From: Mariluticola halotolerans
Lineage (GTDB): Bacteria; Pseudomonadota; Alphaproteobacteria; Rhizobiales; Devosiaceae
Assembly (NCBI RefSeq): GCF_021611515.1
Contig: NZ_CP090960.1
Coordinates: forward strand, 1,922,001 to 1,986,000
DNA: 64,000 nucleotides
Direction: 5' to 3'
A model generated the notes under the pieces. It was not told the DNA's origin. It saw nothing but the letters and a program-made list of their open reading frames with translations, and ran no database searches. Position numbers and translations under genes: made by a program. Shown piece after piece: positions 34,013-40,249 of this stretch (position 1 is the first letter of the stretch; the number at the start of each line of letters is the position of its first letter).

Positions 34013-34657
34013 TTAGAACTCGATCCCGGCCTGTGCCTTCACGCCGTCGCGGAAGGGATGCTTGATCATGGTCATTTCGGTGACCAGATCGGCGATCTCG
34101 ATCAGTTCGTCCTTGGCATTGCGGCCAGTGACAATAACATGGGTGTCGCGCGGCTTGTTTTTCAGCACCTCGACAACGTCATTGATATCGAGATAATCAT
34201 AACGCAAACAGATGTTTAGCTCGTCGAGAAGCACCATTTTATAGCGCTCGTCGGCGATCATTTCCTTGGCCATTTCCCAGGCGCCCTTGGCGGCGGCGAT
34301 GTCGCGGGCGCGGTCCTGGGTATCCCAGGTAAAGCCCTCGCCCATGGCCTTGATGGTGACTTGGTCGGGGAATTCTTCCAGAATGTCGCGCTCGCCGGTG
34401 CCCCATTTGCCTTTGACGAATTGGACGATGCCGATTTTGAAGCCGTGGCCCAAGGCCCTGAAAACCATACCGAAAGCGGCGGTGGACTTGCCCTTGCCCT
34501 TGCCTGTGTGGACGATCAGCAGGCCTTTTTCCTCGGTCTTGGTGGCCAGGATCTTGTCGCGGGCTTCCTTCTTCTTGCGCATCTTTTCCGCGTGATAGGC
34601 GTTGCGCTCTTCTTCGCTCATCAGGTCGGTTTTCTTGGGGCGTGGGGCGTCGGTCAT
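34013..34657 (-). CDS. cobO: Corrinoid adenosyltransferase
   Basis: 214 residues of the CobO/BtuR family. It transfers the 5'-deoxyadenosyl group of ATP to Co(I) corrinoid. The modified P-loop HTGKGKGKSTAAFG lies at about 50-63; VQFVKGKWGTGE, MGEGFTWDTQD and LDELNICLRYDYLD are family blocks. The N-terminus is highly charged (EEERNAYHAEKMRKKKEARDK). The ATG overlaps the cobN stop by 4 nt, and the stop is adjacent to the CHAT-like gene. Confidence 0.96.
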   Translation of the reverse strand: MTDAPRPKKTDLMSEEERNAYHAEKMRKKKEARDKILATKTEEKGLLIVHTGKGKGKSTAAFGMVFRALGHGFKIGIVQFVKGKWGTGERDILEEFPDQVTIKAMGEGFTWDTQDRARDIAAAKGAWEMAKEMIADERYKMVLLDELNICLRYDYLDINDVVEVLKNKPRDTHVIVTGRNAKDELIEIADLVTEMTMIKHPFRDGVKAQAGIEF

Positions 34658-37600
34658 TTGGGGGTCTCCTCAAGTTCAGCGTAGGCCGAATTGGATTTCG
34701 GCGTCCAGAATCCGCGTGTCATGGCTTCGCGGAATTTGGCGATCAGCTCGTCATAGCCGTGCGGATTGTTGTTTTGAATGAATGACTTGACCTCTTCATC
34801 CTGCACGAAGGCGGTGAAGGCCAGATCGAAATGATGGGTCTTGACCGCCCCGGTGGTGGCGGCGAAGGCGAACATGTAATCGAGCGTGGCGATGATCTCG
34901 AAAGCGCCCTTGTAACCATGGCGCATGACGCCAGAAATCCATTTGGGATTGACCACGCGCGAGCGCATGACGCGGGAGATTTCCTCCTCCAGCGTGCGGG
35001 TCAGCGGGCGTTCGGGACGTGAGTGATCATTGTGATAATTCAAGGGTTTGTGGCCGGATAAGGCTTCTGCCGTGGCGGTCAGGCCACCCTCGAACTGGTA
35101 GTAATCATCGCTGTCCAGCAGGTCATGTTCGCGGTTGTCCTGATTATGGACCACGGCCTCGATATCACTGAGGCGGGCGGCGAAGCGGGCGTGTTCGGGT
35201 GTCCCTTGCGCATGGGCGCCATAGGCGTATTGGCCCCAATTGAGGAAGGCCTTGGCAAGGTCTTGTTTTTCCTGCCAGTTTCCGCTGTCGATCAGGCCCT
35301 GCAGGCCCGCGCCATAGGCACCCGGCTTGGAGCCGAAAATGCGGTGGCCGGCGGCAAAGCCGGCGTCTTCCTCGGATTTCCCCTCTTTTATCAAAGCGAT
35401 AGCATCGGTGCGCATGCGGGCGGCGATGGGGTTCTGGTCTTCGGGTTCATCGAGGGCACCGATCATGCGGATGGCGCGGTCGAAAAGGGCGATCAACTGG
35501 GGGAAGGCATCGCGAAAAAACCCGGAAATTCTAAGGGTTACGTCCACCCGGGGGCGGCCGAGCCTGGCGAGCGGGATCACCTCGAAACCAGAGACACGTA
35601 GAGAGGACGGGTCCCATTTAGGTTTGGCACCGATCAGGGCGAGGGCTTGGGCGATGTCATCGCCGCCGGTGCGCATATTGGCGGTGCCCCAGACGGAAAG
35701 GGCTATTGATTTCAGCCAGTTACCCTGATCCTGATAATGGCGGGTGATGAGGTTTTCCGCCGATTTGCGGCCCAGTTCCCAGGCGGTCGGGGTGGGGACG
35801 GCGCGATTGTCGACGGAATAGAAATTGCGCCCTGTCGGCAGCACGTCGAGACGGCCGCGCGAGGGGGCACCGGAGGGACCGGGAGCGATGAATTTGCCAT
35901 CGAGCCCATCGAGCAAGGCCTTGATTTCATTGGGACCTGAGGCCTTGAGGCGTGGGCGGATGATGGTTTCGACGGTGGCCAGAACGGCACGGGTGGCTGT
36001 CCATTCCGGGGCCGGTGCGGTGCCCGAGACGAGGGCTGCAGCCAAAGCTTCGAGGCGCTCGACGGTGTCGCCATTGGTGCGCCAGAGATTTGCTTTAATA
36101 AGGCTTATATCAGCCCCAGTTTCAGCCCCGGTTTTATCCCTGACGTCAGCCTTTTTGTTAGCCCCGATTTCAGCTTCATCAGGCTTGGGCCCGGTCCATG
36201 GGTCGCCGAGATTGGCGGTTAAGGGATCGAAGCCTAATTTCAGGTCATCGGCGAGGGCACGGATCAGGGAAGCATCGCCCGGCATCTCTTCACCACGCGG
36301 CACGCGAGCGAGGGCGACGATGAGATCGCGTTCGAGATCGCCGTCGGGCGACTGGCCGAAGATATGGAGGCCATCGCGGATTTGCGCTTCCTTGAGATCA
36401 CAAAGGAACGTGTCGATCTTGTTGAGCGCCTGCGCTTCGTCGTCGGGCAGGTTGATATCGCGGTCGAGGGCGGTGTCGCGGGTGAAGGCGAGGATGCGTT
36501 TGGTGATGTCCTCGAGACGGCGGCGGTCCATGCCGGCGGCGGCGTAATATTCATCGAGCAGGGCTTCGAGGTCTTTGAGGGGGCCATAGGTTTCGGCCCG
36601 GGTCAGCGGGGGGACCAGATGGTCTATGATGACCGCACCGGTGCGGCGCTTGGCCTGGGTGCCCTCGCCCGGGTCGTTGACGATGAAGGGATAAAGATGC
36701 GGCAGCGCGCCCCAAAGCGCATTGGGATAGCTGGCCGCATCGAGCGCCGTGGCCTTGCCCGGCAGCCATTCGAGATTGCCATGCTTGCCATTGTGAATGA
36801 GGGCGTGAGCGCCAAAGCCGTGGCGCAGCCAGAGATAGGCGGCGCAATAGGCATGGGGGGGCACGAGGTCCGGATCGTGATAGCTGGCTTCGGCATCGAG
36901 ATCATAACCGCGGGCGGGCTGCAGCATGACGGCGATATTGCCGAAGATCCTGACCGGGAGATGGAAACCATCGGCGCGGACAAACTGATCGGTTTCGGGC
37001 GCGCCCCAGCGGGTGGTGACCTGGGTGCGGATCTGGTCGGGCAGGGTTTGAAACAGGGATTTGTAGGTGTCGAGCGGCAGGATGGCGGGGCTGATGCCAC
37101 GCTCCGGGCTGGCATTGGTCGGGCCGGACTGCAGGGCTTCGATCAGGGCGTTGCCGGATTGGGGGAAGTGGTCCGCGGCGCTATCGAGGAAGGCCCCCTC
37201 ACCCGGCGCTGGCGCGCCGACCTCTCCCCCTGAGGGAGAGGTGGAAGTGGGGTGTGCTGCATGTTCGGAGTTTGAGGGATGAAATTGAGCGAGTGCGGCG
37301 TTCTCCCCTCCCCCTTGAGGGGAGGGGTCGGGGGTGGGGGTCGGCGCGTTAGCGCCATCAGGAAAGTCCGGGCTATCGTTTTGCGACGTGCCAAGCGGAA
37401 GGCTTGAGTCTTTTCTGGTCCCTTCGGGACGACCCCCACCCTGCCTCTCGGCATCCCTCCCCTCAAGGGGGAGGGAATCGATGGCTGCGGCCTCCGCGTG
37501 TGTGGGATGAAATTGAGGGGATGTAGCGGCACCAGCAGACCGCAAGTCATATCCGGCGGCGGCTAGGGCTTTCAGGATTTCGACGGTGGATTGGGGGGCG

Positions 37601-39024
37601 TCGTAGCCGACGCCGTTGGCGATGCGGCCATCGCGGATGGGGTAGTTGGCAAGGACAATGCCGACGCGGCGTTCGGACCGGGCGGTTTGGCGCAGTTTGG
37701 CCCAGTTTTGCGCCAGTTTGACCGCATTGGTGATGCCCTCCGCATCGGGGGCATAGGCGGAAAGCGGGCATTGGGTGGCCTCGTGCCAGAGCGCTTCCTG
37801 CTTGTGGCCAACGATCAACGCGCCAATGCGACCATCCATTTCAGGCAGGACGATTTGCATGGCCAGATCCTTGGCGGTGAGGCCCTGGCTGTCATCCTGC
37901 CATTGGGTTTCGGACCGGCCAGTCTGAATCAGTTGGAGGATCGGGGCGTCAGTGCCTGCAAACGGATTCTTCTCGTCGGCGAGACCATCGAGCCCGAGGG
38001 CGAAACCGGTGAGATTAAGGATTACATCGGGGGGCAGGCTTTTGAATGTTGCCTGCACGAAGGCAACGCAGGTTTTGTCCTTGAGCGAGGAGACAACCAG
38101 CGGGACCGGGGCGAGGCCCTGACGGACCAGCGTCTTGATCAGGCGGTTGAGGGTTGCCGTGCCCGCGCCTTCGAGGGCGGCGCGGTAGAAGAGGATGGGG
38201 GTTATGGGTTTTTGGGGCGAGGTTCCATCAGACAAGTGAAGGAAGGCCCCCTCACCCGGCGCTGGCGCGCCGACCTCTCCCCCTGAGGGAGAGGTGGAAG
38301 TGGGGCTGGCCGCGCGTTCCGGGCGTGAGGGATGGAATTGAGAGAGCGCGGCGTTCTCCCCTCCCCCTTGAGGGGTGGGGTCGGGGGTGGGGGGCGGCGC
38401 GGTAGCGCCATCAGGAGATTCCTGATCCAAAACACTGAGACCGGTCAGTTCGCCGAGACGGGCTGGATCGACAATGCCTTCGCCGGGCCACCAGATGCCG
38501 AAGCGGGGGAAAGGGATGGGGGGCGTTGAAGGGATGGGGGTGTTGTTGGCCAGGGCGCTAAAGGCGTTGAGGGCCAGGTCCATATTGTCGGGGCCGCCTG
38601 CTGTGAACAGGGCGTGGAGCTGATGCCATTCGGCTTCGTTGAGGGTGGAGCGGTCGAGGAGGACCGGGTCGGGATTTGGGTCGCCGGGGAGGAAGGCGAG
38701 TTTGAAGGCGCCGGTGCTGGCAAGGGTTGCGAGTTCGGCGACGCCATAGGGCCAGTAGGCCGGGCCGCCGAGCAGGCGGATGACGACGATTTTGGCGTGG
38801 CGGACGGTGTTTTCCAGCCAGAGATCGATGGAGAGATTATGCGCGAGCTTGAGCACATTGGCGAGGCGCACATTTGTGGCCCCGGCCCTGTCAACCGCGC
38901 CGGCCATTGCGGCCAGTTCGCTGTCGGCGGCGGAGGCGAAGATGATGTCGCCCGGCGTCTGGTTGAGATCGATCGCCTCGCCCTCTTGCTGCAGGGCACC
39001 GGCCTGGGCGGCTAGGAGATGCAT
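34654..39024 (-). CDS. cobN: Cobaltochelatase subunit CobN with in-frame repeat insertions
   Basis: 1456 residues against about 1275 expected. CobN is the large ATP-dependent subunit that inserts cobalt into hydrogenobyrinic acid a,c-diamide with CobS and CobT (not in the window). Recognisable blocks: MHLLAAQAGAL start, FLPGDPNPDPVLLDRS, GTDAPILQLIQ, HGFGAHALIHNGKHGNLEWL, DVTLRISGFFRDAFPQLI and YKGAFEIIATLDYMFAFAATTG. Two regions are foreign to the family: about residues 203-262 and 505-613. They translate the palindromic repeats at 38241-38416, 37188-37363 and 37417-37517 (SPSGGEVGAPAPGEGAF twice) and keep the frame open. Both lie in positions that look like surface loops. The AAGGAG is 21 bases upstream, better placed for a tiny leader frame. 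Confidence 0.93.
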   Translation of the reverse strand: MHLLAAQAGALQQEGEAIDLNQTPGDIIFASAADSELAAMAGAVDRAGATNVRLANVLKLAHNLSIDLWLENTVRHAKIVVIRLLGGPAYWPYGVAELATLASTGAFKLAFLPGDPNPDPVLLDRSTLNEAEWHQLHALFTAGGPDNMDLALNAFSALANNTPIPSTPPIPFPRFGIWWPGEGIVDPARLGELTGLSVLDQESPDGATAPPPTPDPTPQGGGENAALSQFHPSRPERAASPTSTSPSGGEVGAPAPGEGAFLHLSDGTSPQKPITPILFYRAALEGAGTATLNRLIKTLVRQGLAPVPLVVSSLKDKTCVAFVQATFKSLPPDVILNLTGFALGLDGLADEKNPFAGTDAPILQLIQTGRSETQWQDDSQGLTAKDLAMQIVLPEMDGRIGALIVGHKQEALWHEATQCPLSAYAPDAEGITNAVKLAQNWAKLRQTARSERRVGIVLANYPIRDGRIANGVGYDAPQSTVEILKALAAAGYDLRSAGAATSPQFHPTHAEAAAIDSLPLEGRDAERQGGGRPEGTRKDSSLPLGTSQNDSPDFPDGANAPTPTPDPSPQGGGENAALAQFHPSNSEHAAHPTSTSPSGGEVGAPAPGEGAFLDSAADHFPQSGNALIEALQSGPTNASPERGISPAILPLDTYKSLFQTLPDQIRTQVTTRWGAPETDQFVRADGFHLPVRIFGNIAVMLQPARGYDLDAEASYHDPDLVPPHAYCAAYLWLRHGFGAHALIHNGKHGNLEWLPGKATALDAASYPNALWGALPHLYPFIVNDPGEGTQAKRRTGAVIIDHLVPPLTRAETYGPLKDLEALLDEYYAAAGMDRRRLEDITKRILAFTRDTALDRDINLPDDEAQALNKIDTFLCDLKEAQIRDGLHIFGQSPDGDLERDLIVALARVPRGEEMPGDASLIRALADDLKLGFDPLTANLGDPWTGPKPDEAEIGANKKADVRDKTGAETGADISLIKANLWRTNGDTVERLEALAAALVSGTAPAPEWTATRAVLATVETIIRPRLKASGPNEIKALLDGLDGKFIAPGPSGAPSRGRLDVLPTGRNFYSVDNRAVPTPTAWELGRKSAENLITRHYQDQGNWLKSIALSVWGTANMRTGGDDIAQALALIGAKPKWDPSSLRVSGFEVIPLARLGRPRVDVTLRISGFFRDAFPQLIALFDRAIRMIGALDEPEDQNPIAARMRTDAIALIKEGKSEEDAGFAAGHRIFGSKPGAYGAGLQGLIDSGNWQEKQDLAKAFLNWGQYAYGAHAQGTPEHARFAARLSDIEAVVHNQDNREHDLLDSDDYYQFEGGLTATAEALSGHKPLNYHNDHSRPERPLTRTLEEEISRVMRSRVVNPKWISGVMRHGYKGAFEIIATLDYMFAFAATTGAVKTHHFDLAFTAFVQDEEVKSFIQNNNPHGYDELIAKFREAMTRGFWTPKSNSAYAELEETPK
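37188..37363. repeat. 176-bp interspersed repeat inside cobN, copy A
   Basis: Matches 38241-38416 over its full 176 bp without a gap; the first 65 bases are identical and about a dozen differences lie in the rest. It contains two hairpin units: CCTCTCCCCCTGAGGGAGAGG and CCCCTCCCCCTTGAGGGGAG. Translated on the minus strand it gives PTPDPSPQGGG ... SGGEVGAPAPGEGAF. Flanking DNA is ordinary cobN sequence. Confidence 0.9.
37417..37517. repeat. Related interspersed repeat inside cobN, third element
   Basis: Shares features with the 176-bp elements: a hairpin CCCTCCCCTCAAGGGGGAGG, the GGTCCCTTCGGGACG hairpin, and a GATGAAATTGAG end that also occurs in copy A (37279-37290). It encodes QFHPTHAEAAAIDSLPLEGR in the same frame. 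With copy A it makes one ~110-residue insertion in CobN. Confidence 0.7.
38241..38416. repeat. 176-bp interspersed repeat inside cobN, copy B
   Basis: Full-length ungapped partner of 37188-37363, in the same orientation and the same reading frame. It adds about 60 residues to the N-terminal third of CobN (PTPDPTPQGGG ... SGGEVGAPAPGEGAF) just before the conserved ITPILFYRAALEGAG segment. Confidence 0.9.
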
Positions 39025-39038
39025 GGTCTGGCTTTCAT
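39012..39038 (-). CDS. Eight-codon leader frame overlapping the cobN start
   Basis: ATG at 39038-39036 encodes MKARPCIS and stops with TAG inside cobN codons 4-5. AAGGAG (complement at 39046-39051) is seven bases upstream of this ATG, the ideal distance, but 21 bases from the cobN ATG. This suggests coupling of cobN translation to a mini-ORF. It may be coincidental. Confidence 0.3.
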   Translation of the reverse strand: MKARPCIS

Positions 39039-39059
39039 TTTTGATCTCCTTGTTGGTGT

Positions 39060-39196
39060 GACCGAGGGATGGGGCGTTTTTGATGGCGCTGCGCGCCCTC
39101 CTCACCCTGATCCCCTGCCCATCGCGCGTAGCGCTCCGGGCGTTCGGGGCTCAAAACGCGCCACCGGCGCCTTTTGTCCCTTCGGGCCGCCCCTCA
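39060..39196. repeat. GC-rich repeat-like spacer between cobW and cobN
   Basis: No gene. The sequence has the style of the interspersed repeats: CCTCACCCTGATCCCCTGCC, CGCGTAGCGCTCCGGGCG, GCGCCACCGGCGC and CCCTTCGGGCCGCCCC, each able to form a small hairpin. It resembles repeat families that surround the cobN insertions, but I find no full-length copy match inside the window. Confidence 0.4.
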
Positions 39197-40249
39197 CTAC
39201 TCCGCGGCCACCAGTGCGGTCAGGCTTTCGGTGATGGCCTGTTTGGCCAGCGGGCTTTCGCCGATGACGACGAGGGCTGTTTCACGTGGCTCATCCGGCC
39301 CCCAGGGCCGATCGAACCAGGTATTGATGCGCGGGCCGACGGCCTGAATGGCGAGGCGGGCATCGGAGCCGGTGATGGCGGCGAAACCCTTGAGGCGCAA
39401 CACGTCGTGCGACCGGATGGTTTGTTCGATGCGGTTGAGCAAGGCCTGGCGATCTGCCTCGGGCGGCAGACGCAAAGAGAAGCTGTCGAAATCATCATGC
39501 TCGTGCGGTTCGCCATTATGTTCGAGCTCGTGATGGCTGTCGCGGCCTTCAAGATTATCTTCCGAGGCCAGACCCAGACCGAGCAGAGCGCCAATATCGA
39601 CAGCGCCCTGACTGGCGTGGATGAGGCCGGTGCCGGGGCGCATGTGCTGGCGCAGCTGATCGTTGATGCGGGTCAGGGCCGGTGGTTCGACCAGATCGGT
39701 TTTGTTGATGACCACAAGATCGGCGCAGATGAGCTGATCTTCAAACAATTCACCCAGCGGGGTTTCGTGATCGAGCATTTCGTCGGCGGCGCGCTGGGCG
39801 TTGACCGCTGTTTCATTGGCGGCGAAACGGCCCTCGCTGAGGGCGGCGGCATCGACAATGGTGATAATGCCGTCAATGGTGACTTCGGGCTTGATCTCGG
39901 GCCAGTTGAAGGCGCGGACCAGCGGTTGTGGCAGGGCAAGGCCCGAGGTTTCGATGATGATGTGATCGGGGCGCTCTGGCCGGTCGAGCAGCGCCTTCAT
40001 GGTGGGGATGAAATCATCGGCGACGGTGCAGCAGATGCAGCCATTGGCCAGTTCGATCATGTCCTCTTCGCGGCAGGTTTCCTCGCCGCAGCCTTTAAGG
40101 ACATCGCGGTCGACGCCGACATCGCCGAATTCGTTGATGATGAGGGCGAGGCGCTTGCCCTTGGCATTGGCGAGCACGTGGCGCACGAGGGTGGTTTTGC
40201 CGGAACCGAGAAAGCCGGTGACGATGGTGACGGGAATGCGGGCAGCCAT
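39197..40249 (-). CDS. cobW: CobW-type GTP-dependent metal chaperone
   Basis: 350 residues, COG0523 family. Walker A GFLGSGKTT near residue 13, the metal-binding GCICC motif in ELANGCICCTVADD, GTPase motifs VDAAAL and NKTD, and a His/Glu-rich loop (HHELEHNGEPHEHDD) before the CobW C-terminal domain. CobW proteins deliver metal, here probably Co(II) to CobN, next gene in the operon. The ATG has AAAAGGAG nine bases upstream; a TTG two codons earlier is unlikely. Zinc-related COG0523 proteins are an alternative but the cobN context supports CobW. Confidence 0.93.
   Translation of the reverse strand: MAARIPVTIVTGFLGSGKTTLVRHVLANAKGKRLALIINEFGDVGVDRDVLKGCGEETCREEDMIELANGCICCTVADDFIPTMKALLDRPERPDHIIIETSGLALPQPLVRAFNWPEIKPEVTIDGIITIVDAAALSEGRFAANETAVNAQRAADEMLDHETPLGELFEDQLICADLVVINKTDLVEPPALTRINDQLRQHMRPGTGLIHASQGAVDIGALLGLGLASEDNLEGRDSHHELEHNGEPHEHDDFDSFSLRLPPEADRQALLNRIEQTIRSHDVLRLKGFAAITGSDARLAIQAVGPRINTWFDRPWGPDEPRETALVVIGESPLAKQAITESLTALVAAE

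Follow-up and report, generated by a model that had tools for sequence, protein, structure and literature searches.

Triplex-type palindromic repeats in frame within cobN of Mariluticola halotolerans, and the linkage of such palindromes to DUF559 genes

The window, the whole stretch of 64,000 nucleotides of Mariluticola halotolerans DNA that was analysed, carries on its minus strand cobN, the gene for a vitamin B12 enzyme. The gene was identified through Pfam, NCBIfam and alignment with the solved CobN 9uk9, and TIGR02257 scores 1491 bits against the frame (cut-off 822). Judged by alignment, the ATG at 39024 is more likely to be the start than the GTG at 39105. Two direct, ungapped repeat copies of 183 nt, 90% identical, and a third relative are located inside the cobN frame. 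The features, in window coordinates, are:

34654..39105, minus strand: cobN open frame, 1483 amino acids counted from the GTG at 39105
38221..38472, minus strand: CobN insert 1, residues 212-295 of the 1483-amino-acid frame, 84 amino acids against 11 in 9uk9
37171..37542, minus strand: CobN insert 2, residues 522-645, 124 amino acids against 1 in 9uk9
37187..37369, plus strand: repeat copy 1, made of third strand B, arm B, 45-nt spacer, arm A and third strand A, the third strands being outward
37220..37242, minus strand: copy-1 arm B, a hairpin of ACCTCTCCC..GGGAGAGGT whose third strand occupies 37194-37204 and scores 0.89
37256..37300, plus strand: 45-nt spacer of copy 1, with more copies at 37484-37528 and 38309-38353
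37305..37327, plus strand: copy-1 arm A, a hairpin of CCCCTCCCC..GGGGAGGGG whose third strand occupies 37330-37340 and scores 1.0
37454..37476, minus strand: third, inverted arm A, third strand at 37434-37442, score 1.0; the MITE of the genome matches 37395-37476
38240..38422, plus strand: repeat copy 2, parts in the order of copy 1, 90% identity
38273..38295, minus strand: arm B of copy 2, third-strand score 0.89
38358..38380, plus strand: arm A of copy 2, stem imperfect with one mismatch

A previous sequence-only reading of this DNA had described two ungapped 176-bp copies in cobN; they are real, being 91% identical over 176 bp, and extend to the 183 nt given above. Copies 1 and 2 are offset by 1053 nt, that is 351 codons, and therefore occupy the same frame. 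The third relative, which had been placed at 37417-37517, is also real and in frame, but amounts to only half a unit: an inverted type-A arm followed by the 45-nt spacer at 37484-37528, which lies 228 nt (76 codons) from the copy-1 spacer and hence keeps the frame. A common orientation and frame had been attributed to all repeats; this is correct for the frame and for the orientation of the spacers, but the third arm is inverted with respect to the A arm of copy 1. Just upstream of cobN, between cobW and cobN, a 22-nt match (86%) to the second hairpin of the third arm (GTCCCTTCGGG..) was found at window positions 39176-39197, possibly a remnant.

The arms are composed of a C/T-rich palindrome and a G-rich segment that mirrors the purine arm, as in CCCCTCCCC-CTTGA-GGGGAGGGG followed by GGGGGTGGGGG. 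Judged by sequence, this design is that of the BoxC/PIT intrastrand-triplex repeat. Knowledge of triplex repeats of this kind in E. coli goes back to the 1990s. Of the five arms in the window, a scan for perfect pyrimidine/purine-arm hairpins (stem of 6-15 nt, short loop) recovered four and missed arm A of copy 2, whose stem has one mismatch. The third strand mirrors the purine arm with scores of 1.0, 1.0, 0.89 and 0.89 in the four scored arms, and in three of the four it is placed 11-15 nt from the hairpin, against the 1-6 nt loops of the 2015 PIT search, so that three window arms fall outside the strict definition of 2015. Third strands are directed outward in cobN copies 1 and 2 and inward in the MITE of the genome. 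According to the available part of PMC4666352, the E. coli motif forms a triplex in vitro. The Rfam search gave matches only to microRNA families, far below the gathering scores, which are taken as chance.

Additions of about 60 and 110 residues to CobN had been estimated from the sequence; the two added segments exist, but they are larger, as indicated by the comparison with 9uk9. A model of the N-terminal CobN fragment (33 sequences, mean pLDDT 72) gave pLDDT values below 50 for residues 203-268 and 498-610, which cover most of both inserts. Both inserts thus look like occupants of loops predicted to be disordered, in agreement with the proposal that the extra segments are loops. Other CobN proteins had been thought continuous at both spots. 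A comparison set of 50 loci plus 80 loci of named genomes, giving 122 distinct CobNs after removal of eight duplicate loci, indicated that many are, but that extra length at these two positions recurs in many species: 20 of 116 distinct site-1 sequences and 16 of 120 distinct site-2 sequences hold a C/T palindrome, and more sites are lengthened by other sequence. On a generous count, 96/116 and 104/120 distinct sequences, respectively, have no C/T palindrome. Repeat-like peptides of different kinds (PEPVEG, GLSRQSMDHRDEPG) can be read in the same loops of other CobNs. In L002, L103, L109, L111 and L115, sites 1 and 2 read as peptides encoded by different interspersed repeats (CCTGAGCCTGTCGAAGG type; CCGGGCTTGTCCCGG type). 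The earlier reading had held that other long linkers at the same places would speak against mobile repeats, and different repeat-like peptides do occur there in some relatives; we read them as a probable sign of permissive loops and not as evidence against mobility. We infer that the CobN inserts are neutral; they show how repeats landing in tolerant loops can lengthen a large biosynthetic enzyme repeatedly.

The best-matching named relatives of this CobN are Devosiaceae, among them Devosia, Maritalea, Pelagibacterium and Cucumibacter. In CobN of Devosia sp. FKR38 a DUF559 domain is positioned in frame between palindromes, and in that of D. elaeis a whole palindrome-DUF559-palindrome unit is in frame. 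At site 2 of D. elaeis a solo arm stands beside the full unit; the same solo arm stands alone in two other Devosia loci (L016 and L114), and L019 has neither arm nor unit, an arrangement that looks like insertion in stages. The nuclease domains of the two Devosia fusions share 61% identity, a level also seen with some other DUF559 domains, and would fit either one event or two. A Pfam scan of the FKR38 CobN frame matched CobN, DUF559 and a REase family only, with no self-splicing domain.

The repeats are dispersed over the M. halotolerans genome, as the sequence-only reading had anticipated. The cobN repeat unit has 17 matches, full length only in the two cobN copies, and the MITE, whose ends are inverted, has 25. 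Thirteen MITE copies are near-full at 85-100% identity, one is shorter, one at 70% identity lies beside the DUF559 gene, and pieces are found in cobN. The arm pattern CCCTCCCCN{3,6}GGGGAGGG occurs at 29 sites against 0 for the reversed-letter control, and the second arm type at four sites (control 0). These counts support the view of dispersed palindromic elements that are inserted in frame in cobN and have copies elsewhere. In an alignment of 10 copies (nine of the MITE kind and one B-type) the MITE similarity drops beyond the outer palindromes, save for a short repeat beside four of them, and no target-site duplication was apparent by eye in these 10 copies, for which there is no empty site for comparison. 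The short repeat (GCGCATCTGAGCCTGCGGCATGC or near) adjoins the left side of the MITE copies L254, L257, L258 and L261. It had also been suggested that the element is built so that its frame has no stop. This finds no support, since copies 1 and 2 have two of six frames open and letter shuffles average 1.7 and 2.6; among four tested MITE copies the open frames number 1-3 in three cases, and the exception is L254 with 5, a value reached by none of 500 shuffles and opposite in tendency to the rest. None of seven frames spanning repeat copies elsewhere in the genome has a Pfam match, and cobN is the only recognised host protein in this genome so far. A single DUF559 gene is present (109 bits, cut-off 20.6); it is one-sided, and its upstream arm matches the MITE arm at 86%. 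No match to the Y1 HUH (RAYT-type) transposase, PF01797, was obtained in the genome at E ≤ 0.01 with a search whose control was positive in 6 of 14 genomes.

DUF559 (PF04480) proteins, of which ycjD encodes the E. coli member, are widespread and little studied. The family belongs to the Vsr-like PD-(D/E)XK nucleases; among solved structures 3hrl is a relative (E 7.9e-17), and Vsr is detected with the YcjD profile (PMC1189080). In Caulobacter, the DUF559 protein VsrA is needed for the DNA damage response in cells without cytosine methylase, and has been proposed to act in mismatch repair (PMC12907096, available part).

The finding of DUF559 in frame in Devosia CobN led to a general test of the association between palindromes and DUF559 genes. 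DUF559 is present in 37 of 61 Devosiaceae genomes. At 91 unique Devosiaceae sites, C/T hairpins reach 5.36 per kb within 100 bp of the gene, 3.24 at 100-200 bp, 0.74 at 200-300 bp and 0.05-0.34 beyond; under a strict rule 38 sites are two-sided, 38 one-sided and 15 have none. The hairpin class was picked after viewing 20 Devosiaceae regions, partly chosen for long frames, which are included in the 91-site count, and three weaker sites (G063:C80, G072:C29 and G028:C5) are left out of the set. Two further samples, one of Alphaproteobacteria (the class sample) and one drawn at phylum level (the phylum sample), were counted by one strict rule after the hairpin class had been fixed, their loci being the best-scoring ones. 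DUF559 was found in 39/142 genomes of the class sample, and around 30 loci the density is 6.83 per kb within 100 bp, 2.17 at 100-200 bp and 0.33 at 200-300 bp, with 0 C/T palindromes in about 70 kb at 300-1500 bp. Eighteen of these loci are two-sided, nine one-sided and three have none, so that 27/30 have a palindrome within 300 bp. The phylum sample (DUF559 in 47/200 genomes) provided 26 further loci with 4.81, 2.88 and 1.73 per kb at 0-100, 100-200 and 200-300 bp, then 0.29, 0.31 and 0.04 up to 1500 bp; 11 are two-sided, nine one-sided and six have none, a palindrome being present at 20/26 and, outside the Alphaproteobacteria, at 11/12. Individual loci in Deinococcus, cyanobacteria and Neisseria are for the most part in agreement. 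Under a looser scan (arm of at least 6) eight of nine named loci (L296-L298, L315-L320) have a C/T palindrome within 300 bp; PCC 7002 (L319) has none by the rule, and imperfect C/G-rich palindromes are visible there. Palindromes of this class are thus linked to DUF559 genes.

The third strand accompanies the linkage. It is present at 244 of 276 C/T palindromes located within 300 bp of 146 unique DUF559 genes; counted per strand, the figure is 270/544 against 134/2760 with shuffled tails. In 146 of the 174 nearest cases it points toward the DUF559 gene, and in Deinococcus outward. The left and right palindromes are of the same type at 35 of the 38 two-sided Devosiaceae sites, with a mean of 12.0 and a maximum of 22 in 10000 shuffles. 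Over the 61 Devosiaceae genomes the number of DUF559 genes correlates with that of palindromes (rho 0.76, and 0.71 after subtracting two palindromes per gene), a correlation that ignores kinship. Among genomes with DUF559, those in which the gene carries palindrome type T2 or T3 have more of that type than the rest (p 5e-5 and 5e-4), and for T1, the type in cobN and the MITE, the excess is not significant (p 0.10). Two genomes without a DUF559 match are rich in palindromes, namely G078 (92 of one type) and G030 (39).

Units bracketed in this way are found in other operons and enzymes. Two Deinococcus plasmids with syntenic hpa genes share a DUF559 stretch of 421 aligned nt, 79% identical, and a 44-nt end of the unit has an inverted match at 98%. 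The unit occupies the hpaB/oxidoreductase junction in D. proteolyticus and the oxidoreductase/hpaE junction in strain NW-56. In D. proteolyticus the latter junction is a 4-nt gene overlap, that is, the empty counterpart of the NW-56 site. In NW-56 a VOC gene also lies between hpaB and the oxidoreductase gene, and hence the region has changed in other ways too. An HsdM frame of type I restriction (L275:1-2127, plus strand, genome G249, outside the Alphaproteobacteria) contains HsdM_N, N6_Mtase and, in frame between palindromes, DUF559. In L267 (genome G404) one open frame holds DUF559 together with the C-terminal domain of CbiG (CbiG_C), the product of another cobalamin gene; this may represent two adjacent genes in one frame and was left out of the fusion count. 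At many DUF559 loci both flanks are conserved between genomes, and the gene is therefore often immobile.

Of 5426 E. coli genomes, 3363 cover at least 80% of a query made up of ycjD and the repeats downstream of it. Among 60 evenly drawn records, one of them a plasmid that was excluded, other BoxC-like places number 11-25 (median 16) in the 37 with ycjD and 2-17 (median 5.5) in the 22 chromosomes without it. Both ycjD and the place counts follow clades, and thus stand for few independent events; a clade pattern of ycjD is described in the available part of PMC12817139. The sapF-fabI region (L299, L300, L301) holds either ycjD or an efflux operon. No clean E. coli empty site for ycjD was obtained, as two strains without the gene have the efflux operon beside sapF, in agreement with the same part of PMC12817139. 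Four records of the plasmid collection (NZ_CP141089.1, NZ_OL790696.1, NZ_CP119142.1 and NZ_CP119140.1), at 2.2-4.9 Mb, appear to be chromosomes carrying a plasmid label.

We propose, as a reasonably probable reading, that the inserts in cobN represent parts of a mobile, dispersed element with triplex-type arms, moved by DUF559 in a RAYT-like fashion. In the model, the element would exist in two forms, gene-less arm pairs (the MITE) and arm pairs around a single DUF559 gene. DUF559 would recognise the arms folded as single strands, for instance on the lagging strand, and would nick or cut DNA at the arms or because of them. During repair of the break an arm pair would be copied into it; this would happen in cis or, where the copy carries no gene, in trans. 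Copies in a needed coding sequence would persist if they are in frame within a disorder-tolerant loop, and CobN would offer two such loops, hit repeatedly in Hyphomicrobiales. The part of DUF559 as mover, the folding step and the repair step are what we infer from the arm anatomy, the linkage to DUF559, the matched arms, the dispersed copies, the nuclease-bearing CobN copies and the presence of the unit at different junctions of related operons. Several observations count against DUF559 as mover: its loci are conserved in place, many sites are one-sided (only 38/91 are two-sided), palindromes occur without DUF559, the excess of T1 has a p of 0.10, and third strands run in opposite directions in Deinococcus and cobN compared with most loci. 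In its general form, put forward with slightly less confidence as somewhat probable, the proposal describes a class of mobile element with triplex-forming palindromes as ends and a Vsr-like DUF559 as sole protein, present at least in Pseudomonadota, Deinococcota and Cyanobacteriota, that spreads BoxC/PIT repeats, makes gene-less copies and enters CobN and HsdM in frame. If true, this would explain the spread of BoxC/PIT repeats, the gene-less copies and the enzyme-nuclease fusions of both proteins.

Two other explanations are live. Vsr-like nucleases are known as homing enzymes, and DUF559 could be a homing-type nuclease gene that inserts into pairs of triplex palindromes, the palindromes spreading otherwise (by slippage or template switching) and the matched arms being the halves of one invaded pair. 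This possibility fits the matched arms and the apparent stages of insertion in Devosia CobN, where a solo arm was already in place; it also fits the palindrome-rich genomes without a DUF559 match. A pure invader, however, need not show a DUF559 number that tracks the palindrome number, nor two of three palindrome types commoner where DUF559 carries that type, and we regard a homing nuclease targeting palindromes as rather unlikely. A shade less likely still is that DUF559 is a repair or genome-maintenance nuclease that tames triplex or hairpin DNA and moves nothing, the arms being near it for regulation or by chance of origin. The Vsr-like fold, the detection of Vsr by the YcjD profile (PMC1189080, accessible part), the tie of Caulobacter VsrA to DNA damage and its proposed place in mismatch repair (PMC12907096, available part) and the frequent conservation of DUF559 loci in place all agree with such a role, but a housekeeping gene leaves unexplained the Deinococcus unit at different junctions and the presence of DUF559 inside CobN and HsdM.

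The CobN inserts themselves might be functional linkers under selection, for instance for subunit contact, as the kept frame and the lengthening of many CobNs at the same two places would allow; their content varies between species, many CobNs have no inserted palindrome and the segments are predicted disordered, which makes this explanation very improbable. Ordinary terminators or G+C-rich hairpins arisen by chance are scarcely credible as an account of the palindromes at DUF559, for although hairpins near genes are common and those outside the C/T class are also somewhat denser beside DUF559 (2.1 per kb in the nearest 100 bp, 0.6-1.2 farther out, Devosiaceae sites), no hairpin of the same class was found in the roughly 70 kb around the same genes in the class sample, reversed-letter controls give 0-1 per genome, third strands recur, and PIT elements are without terminator activity according to earlier work cited in the available text of PMC4666352.

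With respect to known systems, the proposed DUF559-borne element combines features of several. The BoxC/PIT or 'TM' motifs have in common with it the pyrimidine/purine hairpin, the mirror third strand, the many copies and, sometimes, inverted pairs of two types (PMC4666352, available text). In E. coli the TMs are always intergenic according to that text, whereas M. halotolerans arms are also inside coding sequence; the arms here form MITE-like pairs and are linked to DUF559, whereas the text available for PMC4666352 reports no mobility gene nearby, and its main text contains neither 'endonuclease' nor 'duf'. RAYT genes, in turn, are often kept in place. The likeness to REP/REPIN and RAYT resides in the inverted palindrome pairs, the many gene-less copies and the few enzyme genes bracketed by the same palindromes and often conserved in position. 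The enzyme differs, being a Vsr-like PD-(D/E)XK nuclease and not a Y1 HUH protein, of which the genome has no match; the element would work like REP/RAYT without being classed as a member.

The Rickettsia palindromic elements, to which the sequence-only reading had compared the cobN repeats, are likewise palindromic and in frame in a protein gene. The comparison is useful as an analogy, but the Rickettsia elements have other arms, and those of cobN are of the BoxC/PIT type and tied to a nuclease gene, with one recognised host protein. Solitary Vsr-like DUF559 nucleases such as E. coli YcjD and Caulobacter VsrA belong to the same protein family, and the portions of the open-access literature consulted tie them to no palindrome. 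As in inteins with a homing endonuclease, the enzyme genes of Devosia CobN and HsdM have a nuclease domain embedded in frame; unlike inteins, neither frame has a splicing domain in Pfam scans. Within open-licence PubMed Central literature, represented mostly by titles and the starts of abstracts, no link of DUF559 to triplex repeats or palindromes was found. The parts of the element are thus of known kinds, and their combination in one element appears to be new. The linkage gives BoxC/PIT repeats and DUF559 proteins each a partner, and the relation between DUF559 and BoxC can be tested in E. coli K-12 by one gene deletion and simple biochemistry.
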